Assembly: GCA_018896875.1 (NCBI GenBank)
Contig: JAHILT010000038.1
Span: forward strand, 1 to 52,172
Length of the DNA: 52,172 nt
Direction of reading: 5' to 3'
DNA from: Patescibacteria group bacterium
Lineage (GTDB): Bacteria > Patescibacteriota > Minisyncoccia > UBA6257 > 02-FULL-45-10c
In this document: positions 4,943 to 52,172 of the stretch, in pieces
Numbering within the stretch: the first letter of the stretch is position 1
How the letters are laid out: each line of letters opens with the position of its first letter
Notes under the pieces: model-generated
Database searches by the model: none
What the model saw: the letters and a program-made list of their open reading frames with translations, nothing else
Told to the model about the DNA's origin: nothing
Translations under genes and position numbers: made by a program

Positions 4943-5056
4943 TACTTCGCCAATTGTTTTTGAGGAACATCTCGGAAGTGCTCTTGCACTGAGAGCGAAG
5001 CAAATTTTTACGTTAGTAAAAATTATGCTGTTTTTGAGAAAATAATTGGCGAAGTA
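4943..5056. repeat. ~115-nt structured repeat, copy 1
   Basis: Shares core GAGGAACATCTCGGA..GAGAGCGAAGCAAATTTT..AAAATTATGCTGTTT with 28604..28741 and 46643..46752; 12-13 bp outer inverted repeat. Confidence 0.85.
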
Positions 5057-5098
5057 ATTAGAAACAAATCACGCCAAATAACATAACAAATCTACGGA

Positions 5099-6070: not shown

Positions 6071-6166
6071 AATAAAAACTAAAAGATGTTTATTTAGAAG
6101 CTATTAATATAAAACTAACAAAAAAATAAAAAGTTTTATAATATGATATATAATAAACTTATATGA

Positions 6167-6299
6167 ATCCCACACATAACAAAAATCAATTTTTGATTTT
6201 GTGTAGGAATATCATATAATTTAAGATTATTTATAAATATTAATAAAACAACAAAGCCAAAGAAAACTTTTGCTTTCTAGTTTTTGTTATGTGTGGGAT
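6167..6299 (+). promoter_or_regulatory. Inverted-repeat leader, copy A (start-codon sequestering)
   Basis: 19-bp perfect inverted repeat ATCCCACACATAACAAAAA / TTTTTGTTATGTGTGGGAT; the right arm runs into an ATG (6298). Confidence 0.85.
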
Positions 6300-6717
6300 G
6301 AAAATAAGAATTAAAAAAATAAATCCCACACATAATAATTTATGTGGTGGGATAAATACTTCTTATAAAAATTTTATGCGGATTTGTGGTTATATAGAAA
6401 TATTTAATCCTCATAAAAACAACGACGTAAGTTATGCGCGCTCATTTGATTCTGGACATTTTTATCCTCGCTTTCATATTTATATTCAAGACCTGCCAAC
6501 CCAAGAAACCGAAATAAACTTACACTTAGATATGAAAAAGGCAAGCTATGAAGGGGTATCTGCTCATAGTGGAGAATACGATGGAGAATTAGTTTCACGA
6601 GAAGCCAAAAGAATAAAAAATATCTCTGACAAATTCAGTTTAGAAAAAACTGTCCAACATCAACCTTTAGGATTTAAAAAGAAAACATCTTTTTGGAGAA
6701 AAATATTTGGTTTTTAA
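6298..6717 (+). CDS. Conserved-looking hypothetical protein; start uncertain (6298 or near 6376)
   Basis: ORF track 6289..6717; region 6320..6355 is itself a repeat hairpin, so a downstream start (MRICGYIEIF) is possible. Confidence 0.6.
   Translation: MKIRIKKINPTHNNLCGGINTSYKNFMRICGYIEIFNPHKNNDVSYARSFDSGHFYPRFHIYIQDLPTQETEINLHLDMKKASYEGVSAHSGEYDGELVSREAKRIKNISDKFSLEKTVQHQPLGFKKKTSFWRKIFGF
6323..6353 (+). repeat. Short version of the inverted-repeat leader (ATCCCACACATAA taat TTATGTGgTGGGAT)
   Basis: Same arm sequence as 6167..6299, short loop, followed by AAATA as at 24112. Confidence 0.7.
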
Positions 6718-8403: not shown

Positions 8404-8690
8404 TGCCGCGGGGGTGAATCGAACACCCAACGCCAGCCTCTTCCGAAGCTATTTGGACTATCTCATCTTCCTTAATTCAGGAAGCCGGGCGCTAATGCAA
8501 GATTATTGTTGGGACTCACCTGCTAGTCTCTACACCTTCTCCGCCACTTAAACCCTGCGGAGCTCGGCTCGGGATTGTCAAATACAAGATATAGTTGATT
8601 TTCCCCGAATTCACCCGGTTATTCAATCTGTATTACTACAGAAGGCCCCAAAGAATTTAGGGCTGCGCTCTACCATTGAGCTACCGCGGC
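8404..8690 (-). tRNA. tRNA-Phe(GAA) interrupted by a group I intron
   Basis: Exons GCCGCGGTAGCTCAATGGTAGAGCGCAGCCCT and GAAGAGGCTGGCGTTGGGTGTTCGATTCACCCCCGCGGCA make a full cloverleaf; anticodon loop CTGAAGA; A73. Confidence 0.85.
8444..8658 (-). mobile_element. Group I intron, ~215 nt, no internal ORF
   Basis: GACAATCCCGAGCC, GGTGTAGAGACTAGCAGG and GATGAGATAGTCC match group I core elements (P3/P7/S region); GCCCU|AAA pairs with GGGGC in a P1-like helix; terminal G. Confidence 0.88.
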
Positions 8691-8773: not shown

Positions 8774-9148
8774 ATGAGAATATGTAGATTGTGCAATAAT
8801 CAATTTAAGGATTATCAAAACAAAAATAGGAATAGATGTGGATCATGTAATACTAAAATTAGAAGATTTAGGGCTAAAGCCGCCGCAATCAAATGTCTTG
8901 GCGGAAAATGTATAGAATGCGGATGGCAAGGCAACCAAGCCGCATTACAATTCCATCATACAGATCCTAGTAAAAAAGATTTTATTATTGGTAATGTAGC
9001 AAATAAAAATTGGGAAAAAATAAAAAAAGAACTCGAAAAATGTATTTTATTATGTGCTAACTGCCATATGATTAAACACAGCACAAAAAATGAAGCTAAC
9101 TTTATTAAAGAAGCTTTAAATTACAAAGGAAGAAAACTTGAATTCTAA
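8774..9148 (+). CDS. HNH endonuclease-like zinc-finger protein
   Basis: CRLC..CGSC, CIECGW...LQFHHTDP...CILLCANCHMIKH. Confidence 0.85.
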   Translation: MRICRLCNNQFKDYQNKNRNRCGSCNTKIRRFRAKAAAIKCLGGKCIECGWQGNQAALQFHHTDPSKKDFIIGNVANKNWEKIKKELEKCILLCANCHMIKHSTKNEANFIKEALNYKGRKLEF

Positions 9149-20666: not shown

Positions 20667-20940
20667 GGATTCTATTTTAACAATAATTCCTAACGCGATA
20701 CTTGTAAATTTTATTCAAAACAAGAAGCAAGGAGGAAATTTATAACTTTAGTTATATTTCCGACGAGCGACGATGTTTGTGGATATAAATTTACAGTATC
20801 CCTTCGGGTTGCGGACTAAGATTGAAAATTTCTGTGTTATGCTTCCTCGCTGTAGTATAAACTACTAGCTCGTCAGCAAGCCTTGGAATTTTCAACTTAT
20901 TCTAGCAACGCGTTTGAGGATTATTATTAAAATAGAATCC
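20667..20940 (+). ncRNA. Large structured RNA candidate, copy 1 (~274 nt)
   Basis: ~31-nt outer pairing GGATTCTATTTTAA..CGCG / CGCG..TTAAAATAGAATCC; internal helices; ~97% identical copy at 51967..52172. Confidence 0.8.
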
Positions 20941-23334: not shown

Positions 23335-23480
23335 AAATTTCATCCCCCACATAACAAAGACTGATAAAATATAAATTTAGATATTGCAAAAAACAATGAA
23401 TAAGTCGCAAAAAAATAATTTAACAATATTGATCACGAAAGCTTAGCTTTTGGGTCTTTGTTATGTGGGGGATGAAATTT
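23335..23480 (+). promoter_or_regulatory. Inverted-repeat leader, copy B (27-bp perfect inverted repeat covering the start codon)
   Basis: AAATTTCATCCCCCACATAACAAAGAC / GTCTTTGTTATGTGGGGGATGAAATTT. Confidence 0.9.
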
Positions 23481-23834
23481 TTATCTAGAATAATATTCTT
23501 TTTTTTGGTTAATTTAATTGGATTAATAGTGGCTTCGTATTTTATAGAAGGATTTTCTGTAGTTCCAAATTTTGAGAACTTATTAATTCTTACCTGTATT
23601 TTTACAGTAATTAATATCTTGATTAAACCTATATTAAAGTTTGTTTTCTCTCCTTTTATCATTTTGACGATGGGCTTGTTTAGCTTAGTAATCAATGCTA
23701 CAATGTTAAAACTTCTTGATATTTGGTCTATAAGTATTACTATTTCTGGAATTCAAGCTTTAATTTACGCAACCTTAATTATCACAATAATAAACTTATC
23801 ATTAACTTTTGTAGCTAAATCTTCATTTAAATAA
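23472..23834 (+). CDS. Phage holin family 4 superfamily IV-type membrane protein
   Basis: Four hydrophobic segments, NILIKPILKFVFSPFIILTMGLFSLVINA. Confidence 0.85.
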   Translation: MKFLSRIIFFFLVNLIGLIVASYFIEGFSVVPNFENLLILTCIFTVINILIKPILKFVFSPFIILTMGLFSLVINATMLKLLDIWSISITISGIQALIYATLIITIINLSLTFVAKSSFK

Positions 23835-24047: not shown

Positions 24048-24055
24048 AAAAATAA

Positions 24056-24111
24056 ATCCCACGCTTAAGCAATATTGTCATTACGTCAATTCGTACTAAA
24101 AAGTGCGGGAT
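24056..24111 (+). repeat. Divergent short inverted-repeat leader (ATCCCACGCTT..AAGTGCGGGAT)
   Basis: Same outer arm as the ATCCCACAC family, upstream of the ATG at 24122. Confidence 0.5.
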
Positions 24112-24121
24112 AAATAATAGG

Positions 24122-28603: not shown

Positions 28604-28741
28604 CAAACAAAAACAAGCCACTTTTGAGGAACATCTCGGAAGCCCTGCCTGCCGGCAGGCAGGGCTCTTGCACTGAGAGCGAAGCAAATTTTTCTCTTAG
28701 AAAAATTATACTGTTTCCGAGAAGTGGCTTATTTTTGTTTG
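28604..28741. repeat. ~115-nt structured repeat, copy 2 (with inserted GC palindrome)
   Basis: Core shared with copies 1 and 3; ~20-bp outer inverted repeat CAAACAAAAACAAGCCACTT / AAGTGGCTTATTTTTGTTTG. Confidence 0.88.
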
Positions 28742-35431: not shown

Positions 35432-36568
35432 ATGAAATATACACATAAAAATTTGCCTGGATCAGTTAAGCATCTTGAAATTAATTTCGGCGGAGACGAG
35501 TTCGCTAAATATTGGCAAACTGTTTACGATAAAGCCGTCAAAGAAGTAGATATAAAAGGATTTCGTAAGGGGTCTGCGCCTAAAGAAGTAGCTGACAAAG
35601 CAGTTAATAAAGACGAAGTATTTAGTAATGCTTCTGTTAATGCTGTCCGTGAAATTTTAAAACAAATAACAGAAGAAAATGGATGGGAAATTGTAGATCA
35701 GCCCAAGATCGACGTAGAAGAAAAAGGCAAGGATTTTATTTTTAAAATTGATTTAACCATTTTTCCCGAAGTATTTTTAAAGGATTACAAAAAGATTGCC
35801 AAAAATATTTTTTCTGAAAAAAAAGAATCTTCCGTTTCTGAAAAAGAAGTTCAAGAAGCCATTGATTGGATTCTAAATTCTAGAGCTAAGATTGTGCGAT
35901 CTTTTAAGCCAGCCGAGATTGGCAATGTAGTAAATATTGATTATAAAGGAAAAAATGACCAGTTTATTTTAGGTCAATCTAGAATAGAAAAAAACTTTGA
36001 TAAAAAAATTGTTGGACATAAAGATGGAGAAGAATTTGATGGCATTAAGTTAAATTCTGTTTTTGAACGCCAACTTCCAGAATTAAACGACGAGCTTGTT
36101 AAAACACTGGGACATTTTAAAACTGTTGATGATTTAAAAAAGAGTATAAACGAAGGGATTTCAAAAGAGAAAGCACTTAAAGAGGTAGAAAAACTAAGAA
36201 TTAAGATTCTAGAAGAAATAATAAAAAATTCTAAAATTGATATTCCTCAAATAATGATTGATAGAACATTAGCAGGAATGCTAGAAGAATATAAAATGTA
36301 TGTTAAGCAAGACTTTAAAGAAGACGATGCTAAGAAAAAACTAGAGCCAGAAGCTAAGAAAAAAGTGGCTTCCAATTTAATACTTTACAAAATAGCTAAG
36401 ATCGAAAAACTAGAGCCGGAACCAGAAGAAGTTGAAATTGAATCTAGCAAGATATTAAGTTCTTTGCGCCCAGAAGAAGCTGTTAGGATAGACAAAGAAA
36501 GAATTCATAATTATAGTTATGACATACTTAAAAATAAAAAGGTTTTTGAATTTTTAGAATCATGTTAA
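35432..36568 (+). CDS. tig: Trigger factor
   Basis: VDIKGFRKGSAPKEV, FPEV, C-terminal chaperone domain; next to clpP. Confidence 0.85.
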   Translation: MKYTHKNLPGSVKHLEINFGGDEFAKYWQTVYDKAVKEVDIKGFRKGSAPKEVADKAVNKDEVFSNASVNAVREILKQITEENGWEIVDQPKIDVEEKGKDFIFKIDLTIFPEVFLKDYKKIAKNIFSEKKESSVSEKEVQEAIDWILNSRAKIVRSFKPAEIGNVVNIDYKGKNDQFILGQSRIEKNFDKKIVGHKDGEEFDGIKLNSVFERQLPELNDELVKTLGHFKTVDDLKKSINEGISKEKALKEVEKLRIKILEEIIKNSKIDIPQIMIDRTLAGMLEEYKMYVKQDFKEDDAKKKLEPEAKKKVASNLILYKIAKIEKLEPEPEEVEIESSKILSSLRPEEAVRIDKERIHNYSYDILKNKKVFEFLESC

Positions 36569-36584
36569 AATAATAAAATTATGA

Positions 36585-36711
36585 ATCCCGCACATAACGA
36601 AGACTATTCTTAGTGGGATAATAGCTTAGAAAAAATAATAAGTCGTATAAATTAACATAAAATAACAAAGTCAGAGAAAATCTTATTTCCAGTCTTTGTT
36701 ATGTGTGGGAT
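36585..36711 (+). promoter_or_regulatory. Inverted-repeat leader, copy C (21-bp stem with two G-U pairs, ends in clpP start codon)
   Basis: ATCCCGCACATAACGAAGACT / AGTCTTTGTTATGTGTGGGAT. Confidence 0.88.
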
Positions 36712-37312
36712 GAACGAAAAAAACGAATATTTAATTCCAACAGTTATAGAAAAAAGTTCTGCAGGAGAACGAGCTTATGATATTTATTCTCGTCTTTTAA
36801 AAGAAAGGATAATATTTTTAGCTGGACCAATAAATGACGCTATTGCTAATACGGTTGTGGCTCAATTACTTTTTTTAGAACATGAAAATCCTAAAAAAGA
36901 TATTAAGCTTTACATTAATTCTCCTGGTGGATCTATCACTGCAGGACTAGCTATTTACGATACAATGCAATATGTTAAATGTGATGTTTCTACTATTTGT
37001 ATCGGCATAGCAGCTTCTATGGGAGCAGTTCTTTTAGCTGCTGGATCTAAGGGGAAAAGATTTGCGCTCCCTAATTCTGAAGTATTGATTCACCAAGTAA
37101 TGGTAGAAGGGATTGGAGGACAGGCCACGGAAATTGAAATAAGCGCCAAACATATTTTAAAAATGAGAGAAAGACTTAATCAATTATTAGTCAAACATAC
37201 AAACCGTCCTTTATTAAAGATACAAAGAGACACAGAAAGAGATTACTGGCTTACTGCTCAAGAAGCTAAAGAATATAATTTAGTAGATAAGATAATTAAA
37301 ACAAAAAATTAG
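36710..37312 (+). CDS. clpP: ATP-dependent Clp protease proteolytic subunit (paralog 2)
   Basis: [41 protein letters not shown]. Confidence 0.94.
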
Positions 37313-42724: not shown

Positions 42725-42806
42725 GCTCCCGTGGCGGAACTGGCATACGCGCATGGCTTAGGACCATGTCCTGCAAAGGGTAGAGGTTCAAATCCTCTCG
42801 GGAGCA
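42725..42806 (+). tRNA. tRNA-Leu(TAG)
   Basis: Long variable arm; anticodon loop CTTAGGA; acceptor GCTCCCG/CGGGAGC. Confidence 0.93.
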
Positions 42807-42808
42807 CT

Positions 42809-43090
42809 ATGTATACAATTTATATTCTACAAAGTCTAAAAAACCTAAGAACATACGCTGGATACACAGAAAATTTAAAATTAAGATTACAACAGCATAA
42901 TTTAGGAAAAGTTAATACCACAAAAAATAGAAGACCTTTGATAATTATCTTTACGGAAAACACATAGTCATTAGCAAAAGCAAAGAAACGCGAACTTTAT
43001 TGGAAATCGGGCAGTGGCAGAAGAAAACTAAAATCTTATTTTGAATTCGGGTTCCCGCCCAGTGCAACTGGGCGAGGCTCGCCCAAATAA
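42809..43090 (+). pseudogene. GIY-YIG endonuclease family, interrupted by in-frame TAG (42965..42967)
   Basis: MYTIYILQSLKNLRTYAGYTENLKLRLQQHNLGKVNTTKNRRPL..FTENT*SLAKAKKRELYWKSGSGRRKLKSYF; domain continues in frame past the stop. Confidence 0.82.
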
Positions 43091-46642: not shown

Positions 46643-46752
46643 GCTTTGCCAATTGTCTTTGAGGAACATCTCGGAGGCGCTTTCGCGCCGAGAGCGAAGC
46701 AAATTTTATAGCAATAAAATTATGCTGTTTCCGAAAAGATAATTAGTAAAGC
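46643..46752. repeat. ~115-nt structured repeat, copy 3
   Basis: Core shared with copies 1 and 2; hairpin GGCGCTTTCGCGCC replaces AGTGCTCTTGCACT. Confidence 0.85.
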
Positions 46753-46754
46753 AA

Positions 46755-49700
46755 TTAAAAACAAATCGCTCCAGCGATATTATCGCCAGAATTTAAATTC
46801 ATAATTCTTACGCCTTGTGTTGCCCTACCAGCCAATCGCACACTAGAAAGTTGTATTCTAATTATTTGACCCTTGATAGATAATACTAGAAGTTCCCGTT
46901 CTTCATTCACTAATATTGAAGCAACAATATTTCCAGTTTTTGAATTAATTTTAGCTGTTTTAATACCAGAGCCACCACGAGCCTGCACTTTATATTGTGA
47001 AATTTTAGTTCTCTTGCCAAAACCACTAGTTGTAACAGTTAAAATGCTAGTGTCTGGGCTAAATTTTTCTTCAATAATAGCCAAAGAAATAAGATTGTCT
47101 CCTTTTTTCAAACGAATCCCCTTCACGCCAGAGGCTGTTCTCCCCATAGGTCTAATTTGAGACTCTTTAAATCTAATTGCTTGCCCTAAAGCTGTAGCTA
47201 AAATAATTTGATCATTACCAGAAGAAAGTTTAACCCATTGTAATGCATCTCCTTTTTTAAGATTAATAGCCCTAATCCCTGTTTTTCTTACATTAATAAA
47301 ATCAGACAAAGCTGTTTTTTTAATAATTCCATTTTGAGTTGCCATCACTAAAAATTTTGATGCTTCCTTCTTATCATCAGAATAGCAAACAACTGATGCT
47401 ATTTTTTCTTCTACGGGAATTTCTAAAAAATTATGAAGAGATCTTCCTTTGGCTATTCGGCTAGCTTCTGGAATTTCATACACCTTAGTTTGAAATACTC
47501 TGCCTTCTTCTGTAAAAAATAAAATATTATCGTGAGTGTTAGTAAATATAAACCTATTTAAGAAATCTTCTTCGGCAACCTGAGATCCAATTAATCCCTT
47601 ACCTCCACGCTTCTGAGAGCGAAAACTTGATGGCGCCACACGCTTAATATAGCCATTATCAGACATAGAAATTATTGTTTCTTCTTTAGGAACAAGATCT
47701 TCTTCGCTAAAATCTTCTAGTCCAGAAGATATAACTTTTGTTTTTCTTTCATCGCCATACTTTTCTTTCATCTCTAAAAGCTCTTTTTTAATAAGAGATA
47801 AAATCTTTTTAGGACTACTTAATAAGGATTTTAAACTTTCAATTATTTTCTTTTTTTCTTCCAATTCATCTTTAATTTTTTTATGTTCTAAGGAAGCCAA
47901 CGCCTGAAGTTTCATTTCTAAAATAGCGCTAGCTTGAATAGCAGAAAATTTAAACTTAATAACTAAGTTTTTATGAGCTGCTTCTTTGTCAGCTGATTTT
48001 TTAATAAGAGCAATAATCTTGTCTATACTTCCTAATGCTTTGTTTAGTCCCATTAAAATATGGGCTCTCTCTTCTGCTTTTTTTAAATCAAATTCTGCTC
48101 TTCTTTTTGTTACTTCTTTTCTATGATTAATATAAGCAACTAAAATTTCTTTAATAGAAAGAACTTGTGGTTGAATGCCGTCAATCAATGCCACCATATT
48201 AAAATTAAAATTCTTTTGAAGGTCGGTAAATTTATAAAGTTGATTTAAAATTTTCTGCGGATTAGCATCGTTTTTAAGATCAATTACTACAGAGATACCA
48301 TCCTTGTCAGATTCATCGCGTACATCCTTTATCCCCTGAATTTTTTTACTAGTTACAAGCTCAGCTATTTTTATTATAAATTCAGACTTATTAACCTGGT
48401 AAGGAATTTCTGTGATTTCAATATAATGTCTTTTAGCAGATTCTTTTACTTCCGCTCTTCCACGCATAGTAACACCTCCTCGTCCAGTCGTATAAGCTTG
48501 TTTGATGGCATTTTTATCATATATGATTCCACCAGTAGGAAAATCTGGACCTTTTATAAACTCCATTAATTCCTCAGAACTGGTTTTGGGATTATCTATA
48601 ATTTCCCCTATAGCATCAATAATTTCTCCTAAATTATGAGGAGGAATATTAGTAGCCATTCCTACAGCAATGCCTACTGCTCCATTAAGTAAAAGATTAG
48701 GAATCTTGGCTGGCAAAACCTTTGGCTCTGTTCTAGTCTCGTCATAATTAGGCGCCCAATTTACCGTTTCTCTTTCAATATCAAGCAAAAGATTCTCAGA
48801 GATACTAGATAGTTTAGCTTCGGTATAACGCATAGCTGCCGCAGAATCTCCATCTACTGAATTATGAACAAAAATCCCCGCAGCCAAAGCAAAATTATGA
48901 CTTTTTTCTATTGTTAAATCATAAACATCCTCTCTCTGATTTAAAAACTCCACTTTTATAACTTTGTGATTTTTATTTAAGGCATTAAGTAAAATCTTTT
49001 TATCATTATTATAATATTTTTGTATACCGGTTTGCCAAGAAGTGGCGCGTCCATAATTATAAATTATGCATCTTTTCTGCTCATATAAATCTTGATTTAA
49101 AATTTTATATTCTTTTAAAACTTCTCTACAAATCTTGAGAAACTTAACCTTGCCAGTATTATTAGAAATTCTTTTTTTATTCGCACTAACGATTTTTTCA
49201 TGAAATAGCTTTCTGTAAACTGGATCTTGCCATAGTCTTTTAAATGTTTGTGTCGCTTGTTTAGAAATTTCAATTCTTCTTTCTGGATGATTTTGAATAT
49301 ATTTTTTATTAACCACACTTAAAAATTTGCTCATTTTTATTCTGTATTCAGAATTTTGCCAATTTTTCAAATTTCGTTCAGACATTCTTTTGGCATATTC
49401 GGCCCTATTAACGGAATTAGACCAAAACTTTCTCCTTCCTTCGGCAATCTTTTCTCTATATTCTTTATTTTTATGCAAATTAGCAGCCTGCTCATAATGA
49501 ACATGCCAGTGTTCTCCCCAGTCTATTCTTTGTATATTATCAGGACTATTATTAAGTTTATTAAAATCTAGATGATGCCTTACTCTCCCTTCTTTTTTTG
49601 AATATTTTTTGATGGTCAAATTATAATTATCAGCTAAATGATGCGACGGAACCCATTCGTCAATTTTGTTTTGATATATTAAATTATAACCCTCGCGATT

Positions 49701-50399
49701 CAGACGATCAGTCTTTTCCGACAATTTCTCATATAAGGGCATTAATGATTCGCCTGGATTTAAATCTTTCGCCTCCTTATAGACACCACTCTTTGTCATA
49801 AATAAATGATTAAGGGTACACTTAATTTCTTCTTTGTTGTCCAGAATAACTTTCATGATTTCAGCATCTTTTCTAGTCAGTCTTGGATTTTTAATTTCAG
49901 CAACCGAAATTAATCCCACCGAATTAACCGTGTATGTATAATTCTTTTTCCCCTCTTTGTATTCTTTGATTAAATCTTCAAAGCTTAAATCGCGGCCGTC
50001 AACCAGTTTAACTTTTGTGTCCTTCGTAAAACAGCCAAAATTTCCTTGGCCTCGTACTAATGGATAACGTAAAGAAAAATCCTGGGCCATACGAACCATA
50101 GCCTCATAAACAGAACTATCGCCATGAGGATGATATTTACCAAGAACTTCTCCAACTACGCGCGCTGATTTCATAAACTTGGCAGAAGAAGATATACCCA
50201 TATTCCACATTGCCCACAATATTCTTCTCTGCACAGGCTTAAGCCCATCTCTCACATCCGGAAGAGCTCTTGAGACTATAACCGACATTGCATAATCTAA
50301 ATAACACTCTTTTAATTCAGCTATAATTTCTTGATTTTGTATCTTGGAATCAAAACCTCCAGATTTATTTATTTTTTTAGGATCTTTTTCTTTTTTCAT
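46755..50399 (-). CDS. gyrA: DNA gyrase subunit A precursor containing an intein
   Basis: [69 protein letters not shown]-terminal beta-pinwheel. Confidence 0.96.
48861..50033 (-). mobile_element. GyrA intein, 391 aa, with HNH-type homing endonuclease-like region
   Basis: Starts [13 protein letters not shown], ends [12 protein letters not shown], +1 Ser; [29 protein letters not shown]; splits GQGNFG^SVDGDS. Confidence 0.95.
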
Positions 50400-51867: not shown

Positions 51868-51966
51868 GGTTTGCTTTTTAATCCTTAATTATATATATTA
51901 ATCAATAATGTAGATTTATTTAATAGAGTTTATAAATCTACAGAATCTATATTTGTGATAATTTCC

Positions 51967-52172
51967 AACGCGATACTTGTAAATTTTATTCAGAACAAGA
52001 AGCAAGGAGGAAATTCATAGCTTTAGCTATATTTCCGACGAGCGACGATGTTATGGATATAAATTTACAGTATCCCTTCGGGTTGCGGACTAAGATTGAA
52101 AATTTCTGTGTTATGCTTCCTCGCTGTAGTATAAACTACTAGCTCGTCAGCAAGCCTTGGAATTTTCAACTT
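51967..52172 (+). ncRNA. Large structured RNA candidate, copy 2 (truncated by window end)
   Basis: ~97% identity to 20693..20898, same helices, compensatory A-T to G-C change. Confidence 0.8.

Follow-up and report, generated by a model that had tools for sequence, protein, structure and literature searches.

The three inverted-repeat elements that precede genes in the window (the whole 52,172-nucleotide stretch analysed here) are members of a dispersed, order-wide family. We consider it probable that these are small mobile elements of Patescibacteria that insert at the sequence ATGRR (R = A or G), occur both as full versions with a GIY-YIG nuclease gene and as non-coding copies, and are tolerated by folding out of the message. 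A more specific reading is a transposase-free, start-codon-targeted transposon that uses a single GIY-YIG nuclease together with the element's own hairpins, duplicates the start codon and leaves the host gene intact; taken jointly with its extension to related elements at tRNA 5' ends, we propose it tentatively and lean slightly against it. In line with the earlier note, which did not recognise a described family, neither Rfam nor the literature searched (preprints and most subscription journals lying outside it) returned a match or any description of elements that duplicate start codons.

Elements A, B and C adjoin start codons

The source assembly is a 790-kb genome in 89 contigs with an estimated contamination of 5%. 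The three elements, designated A, B and C, and two short relatives were found where the earlier note had placed them:

6163..6167, + strand: ATGAA, left target copy of element A (from sequence)
6168..6297, + strand: element A (TCCC...GGG), 130 nt (from arms and fold)
6298..6717, + strand: ORF of unknown function, 139 aa; its ATGAA is the right target copy of A
6319..6356, + strand: short hairpin relative, 28 nt (6324-6351), with ATAAA on both sides (from sequence)
23335..23342, + strand: left flank of B, an inverted copy (AAATTTCA) of the post-start bases, replacing ATGAA
23343..23471, + strand: element B (TCCC...GGG), 129 nt (from arms and fold)
23472..23834, + strand: Phage_holin_4_2-type membrane protein gene, whose ATGAA adjoins B (PF04020, 1.7e-18)
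24052..24114, + strand: short relative (24057-24109) with ATAAA on both sides, between two genes (from sequence)
35432..36568, + strand: tig without an element; empty site matching the copies in genomes G002 and G013
36581..36585, + strand: ATGAA, left target copy of element C (from sequence)
36586..36709, + strand: element C (TCCC...GGG), 124 nt (from arms and fold)
36710..37312, + strand: clpP; its ATGAA is the right target copy of C (PF00574, 4e-82; NF001368)

The arms of the three elements have the form TCCC(A/C/G)CACATAAC..GTTATGTG(T/G)GGG and pair over 19-20 bp. As previously claimed, the right arms run directly into the ATG, at 6298, 23472 and 36710, and the gene identities given for the 139-aa ORF, the holin-like gene and ClpP proved correct. 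Pairing ends on the A of the ATG, zero bases separate stem and ATG, and a Shine-Dalgarno sequence thus has no space between them, in agreement with the claim that no good one is present. The 139-aa ORF has a second in-frame ATG at 6289, within the right arm of A. In B, the arms form a perfect 27-bp inverted repeat, its palindrome being lengthened by the inverted left flank; this repeat does cover the start codon as stated, but it extends six nucleotides beyond it and not two. RNA folding z-scores were -5.6 for A, -9.7 for B and -5.5 for C.

An order-wide family located at gene starts

Allowing up to two mismatches, the right arm gave 57 matches in the 790-kb genome, compared with 2 for the reversed control. 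Across the order, we count 56 non-redundant copies that lie in sense orientation and stop precisely at an ORF's ATG. Some of this set were found by a pattern that itself contains ATG; a pattern scan lacking the ATG gave the same start-codon result for copies from about 90 nt upward, both in 246 genomes of the order and, among the matches listed, on genome contigs. By our own tally, 57 of about 60 long copies occupy a start codon. The earlier note had held that copies scattered without relation to start codons would refute its reading; among those of about 90 nt or more, only three are of this kind, all in genome G006 (L212, L239, L240), with ATCAA-like flanks and none at a start, and these count against our preferred explanation. 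At the sites read in the source genome, full-length copies all lie at an ORF start with two exceptions: C74b, where one extra G shifts the end and the copy is still at a gene start, and C61 (L021), where the ATG of the duplication is now ACA and an in-frame ATG within the right arm is a possible gene start.

Host genes identified by Pfam in the source genome encode RpoC, SSB, GatB, MreB, YchF, a class I tRNA synthetase (W/Y type), L25, a Mur ligase, a MOFRL-family protein, a methylpurine glycosylase, a glycosyltransferase and ClpP; tig and lepB are also among the hosts of start-codon copies. In three genomes of another family (L253, L255, L256), an element occupies the start of a clpP-like gene, immediately preceded by a GIY-YIG ORF, and, set beside C, the clpP start codon is occupied in distant lineages.

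Copies of the source genome are mostly closest to one another (0.79-0.90 for the main types) and not to those of other species, and the element types at ychF and lepB differ between species, which together fits amplification within lineages. One orthologous pair (L003/L053) has elements 92% identical beside flanks of 61-62% identity. Gene conversion or parallel insertion may account for this, as may functional retention, and to that extent the pair counts against our preferred explanation.

Target duplication, empty sites and target choice

The 5-mers to the left and right of the element are identical in 43 of the 56 non-redundant copies (ATGAA, ATGGA or ATGAG), and the left one tracks the gene start, ATGGA genes usually having ATGGA on the left and ATGAG genes likewise. 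Positions 4-5 agree in 49/56 (shuffle mean 40.6, p = 5e-5), the ATG is gone from the left copy in 11/56, and one base outside the 5-mer the sequence information is at background level. Empty sites were found in sister species: tig lacks an insertion in G000, G001 and G003 and carries one in G002; for ychF, G003 and G004 have the empty site, G000 and G002 the filled one. With the element and one ATGAA removed in silico, the closest filled and empty pairs share 74/90 and 77/90 identical bases. The matching 5-mers and the empty sites show that the copies are insertions that duplicated a 5-bp target including the start codon.

ATGRR occurs in the window at 28 gene starts, 34 intergenic sites and 320 coding or other sites, the gene starts being roughly assigned. 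ATGRR alone is therefore insufficient to explain the exclusive use of start codons, implying either further targeting or quick loss of copies elsewhere. Neutral survival at ATGRR was rejected, as it predicts that about half of the copies are intergenic, and 57 of 60 at starts departs from this with p ~1e-16 (rough gene starts, own tally). In the upstream contexts of the 56 copies, which are mixed, we found no DNA target signal beyond the 5-mer, and -10-like boxes are somewhat enriched (32/56, with 20 expected). Targeting of leaderless promoters as the sole rule was also discarded, since some hosts look operon-internal (L043, and ssb right after an upstream stop codon), others have a Shine-Dalgarno-like motif, and no upstream context is common to all. 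CATAA/TTATG bears a resemblance, and only that, to dif sites.

Versions with a GIY-YIG nuclease gene

In the source genome, the 295-nt copies L002 and L006, L014 at a lepB-like gene and the altered C61 all contain an ORF of 85 aa with a match to the GIY-YIG domain (PF01541, 6.6e-16). The Y, R, H and E positions of the domain are conserved, and, by sequence, the nearest solved structures belong to the structure-specific nuclease SLX1 (7e-5) and to a UPF0213 protein (1e-4). Nuclease-bearing versions with the same arms lie at starts in G000, G002, G015, G219 and G228. Related nucleases between other inverted repeats occur at the start codons of smpB-like (G108) and rbfA-like (G095) genes, both named by eye, at gene starts in G142, G171 and G222, at apparent 5' ends of tRNA-Ser (G223) and tRNA-Glu (G094) genes, identified by eye, and at a stop codon in G210. 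At 42725-43036 of the window, a TAG-interrupted GIY-YIG ORF starts two bases past the 3' end of a tRNA gene, and sequence like this tRNA 3' end reappears further downstream.

The close GIY-YIG homologues of the source genome are all located between family arms. A profile search in which the positive controls were detected found no Y1 transposase (PF01797), the mark of IS200/IS605-type REP or RAYT elements, in this genome. Matches to rve and DDE_Tnp_1 do exist, and the contigs that carry them hold no paired arms; between the arms of all copies read we found GIY-YIG ORFs only and no transposase. We take the GIY-YIG protein to be the putative mobility enzyme, which may act by cutting the hairpin or cruciform.

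Fold and arm pairing

Copies of 120-150 nt have a 19-20-bp stem and a further hairpin beside the right arm. The outer bases of the arms are near-invariant, the inner ones vary by lineage and are mostly still complementary, and in a 29-sequence alignment two-sided changes occur at three pairs. Immediately 5' of the right arm, the hairpin persists despite its changed sequence (mean z -1.56, compared with +0.18 for the matching 5' stretch). A GTCG-like box recurs among copies (by eye), and B contains a terminator-like hairpin. Selection on RNA, selection on single-stranded DNA and template switching are all possible reasons for the retained pairing; that the paired arm changes could stem from template switching instead of selection counts against our preferred explanation. 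No promoter was found within B, and in C promoter counts were near the shuffle level. No curated Rfam model matched the elements at its gathering score, relaxed thresholds returning only long-hairpin miRNA models far below cut-off. An RNase III gene is present in the genome.

Short and atypical copies

The short relatives are real hairpins as the earlier note had it, but with ATAAA on both sides and away from start codons. The one at 6324-6351 makes, with its duplication, a 33-nt insertion in frame within the 139-aa ORF. More generally, hairpins only 28-64 nt long (those at 6324 and 24057 of the window, L208, L247 and others) are mostly at non-start sites and mostly flanked by ATAAA; the 42-nt copy L032 is located at a start. 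The left flank is inverted instead of direct in B and in G228 (L259), presumably through later perfection of the palindrome by template switching.

L005 and L009 (5520-5725) are composite copies made of head-to-tail units with a 5-nt spacer (GGG-ACTTG-TCCC type), the length of the target duplication, and L010 has a similar joint; such joints might reflect a circular intermediate. L014 carries at 293-365 a 30-bp tandem repeat whose TCCC/GGGGGACTTG palindrome is akin to the element ends.

Proposed mechanism and alternative explanations

The model we favor runs as follows. The full version would be a unit of about 295 bp in which inverted repeats flank the GIY-YIG gene, and the 90-150-bp versions, A, B and C among them, would be non-coding copies with the same ends. 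Insertion at ATGRR would duplicate these five bases, giving upstream-ATGRR, element, ATGRR-gene. The copies seen sit at start codons, and with ATGRR duplicated the host gene retains a start codon of its own. Within the mRNA, the element would fold on itself over 19-20 bp and more, placing the restored AUG at the foot of a stem that could be looped out or trimmed by RNase III, so that insertion would cost little; such folding or processing is what would make the insertion tolerable. The earlier suggestion of a mobile palindromic element is thus strongly supported by the 5-bp duplication, empty sites, within-genome similarity and nuclease-bearing versions. Of the companion suggestion of a leader RNA, the sense orientation directly before genes, the stable fold and the pairing kept by paired changes in several lineages hold good; a translational gate is less likely than near-neutral tolerance, in which the stem next to the restored AUG would be either looped out or cleaved by RNase III.

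A regulatory leader spread over genes (translational gate, attenuator or switch), in which a signal-responsive stem hides or frees the start codon, would accommodate the sense orientation, the stem abutting the AUG, the conserved hairpin by the right arm, the GTCG-like box, the terminator-like hairpin in B and the conserved L003/L053 pair. Nevertheless, the hosts have no common function and differ by species, orthologues of several of them lack a copy in close relatives, different element types precede one gene in different species, and nuclease-bearing versions occupy the same kind of site, making this reading quite unlikely. Excision from RNA in the manner of an intron or intervening sequence, restoring a single ATGRR, is less probable still. 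It recalls the CPR rRNA genes with GIY-YIG insertions outside groups I and II and many short ORF-less ones (PMC11270868), and the direct repeats at the ends would allow seamless removal; yet an intact ATG after the element makes removal unneeded, the left ATG is lost in 11 of 56 copies, and the elements show no group I or II intron match.

The remaining alternatives concern how copies move and persist. An ordinary MITE, mobilised in trans by a transposase of DDE or another type, with GIY-YIG as cargo or a separate passenger, would explain the 5-bp duplication and terminal inverted repeats typical of DDE elements in a genome with rve and DDE_Tnp_1 matches, and a full element could be missing because the assembly is split over 89 contigs. 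We regard it as unlikely, given that the contigs with these matches lack paired arms, no copy read encloses a transposase, the close GIY-YIG homologues all lie between these arms, and the inner arm sequence is free to vary, which is unusual for a transposase site. Survivorship alone, that is, insertion at any ATGRR followed by selective removal of other copies, is a real possibility that falls somewhat short of persuading us: the lack of signal outside the 5-mer, the mixed upstream contexts, the expected lethality of coding insertions in a reduced genome and the occurrence of related short hairpins elsewhere are all in its favor, but intergenic ATGRR sites are as numerous as starts in the window and insertions there should be tolerated, which is hard to square with the concentration of long copies at starts.

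Comparison with known systems

The elements resemble Rickettsia palindromic elements (RPEs) and MITEs in part, missing one tested defining feature of each. We know of no transposase for RPEs. Like the present family, RPEs are dispersed palindromes of about 100-150 bp inside genes of reduced genomes that do not destroy these genes (PMC10969869). RPEs lie in frame in coding sequence and add a peptide, whereas the long copies here occupy and duplicate the start codon and also come in nuclease-bearing versions; only the short relative at 6324-6351 was seen as an in-frame coding insertion. The target duplicated by Correia elements is TA, and they are not known to be tied to start codons. MITEs such as Correia/NEMIS and ERIC are similarly non-coding, with long terminal inverted repeats and target duplication, and are transcribed with genes, RNase III cutting Correia stems (PMC10969869). 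The MITE features found here are terminal inverted repeats, a length below about 600 bp, the lack of coding capacity, duplication of the target site and empty sites; ends common to a transposase-encoding element were not found in this incomplete assembly, and the candidate mobility gene encodes a GIY-YIG nuclease instead of a transposase.

Free-standing GIY-YIG homing endonucleases, the seg genes of phage T4, are likewise small genes between conserved genes, some neighbouring tRNA genes and associated with RNA hairpins (PMC2988022). They home into cognate genes by recombination. The present family has terminal inverted repeats, and its many unrelated targets, with their 5-bp duplication, do not resemble homing. 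By description, the most interesting possible relatives are insertions in CPR rRNA genes, from the same bacterial radiation and likewise either GIY-YIG-bearing or ORF-less, mostly at the tops or bases of rRNA stems (PMC11270868). These differ in residing in rRNA genes, and the main text of PMC11270868 mentions no start codons, inverted repeats or tRNA genes.

Other repeats in the window

A second inverted-repeat family lies just downstream of the stop codons of recA, an RNase J-like gene and gyrA (4945-5060, 28610-28740 and 46644-46773), with the common core TTTGAGGAACATCTCGGA...GAGAGCGAAGCAAATTTT...ATTATRCTGTTT and outer arms that differ in sequence yet pair; it is possibly a 3'-end counterpart of the start-codon elements. 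The GyrA ORF (46755-50399, 1214 aa) carries an intein-like insertion (...VHN-SVDGD), recognised by eye. A group I intron (RF00028, 69.6 bits) lies on the minus strand at 8434-8668, near a small HNH-like ORF (by eye) at 8774-9148. A near-identical direct repeat of about 230 bp occurs at 20668-20898 and 51943-52172, the latter at the contig's very end, and dispersed repeats may break the assembly.

Significance

Gene-dense genomes offer almost no safe sites for mobile DNA. By duplicating the start codon and folding away within the mRNA, an element could invade genes such as rpoC, ssb and gatB and leave them unbroken, an unusual lifestyle for mobile DNA in a gene-packed genome. The annotation of Patescibacteria would be affected through false upstream starts reading MCGM or MWGM, and the finding may be relevant to CPR rRNA genes, whose GIY-YIG and ORF-less insertions are unexplained.
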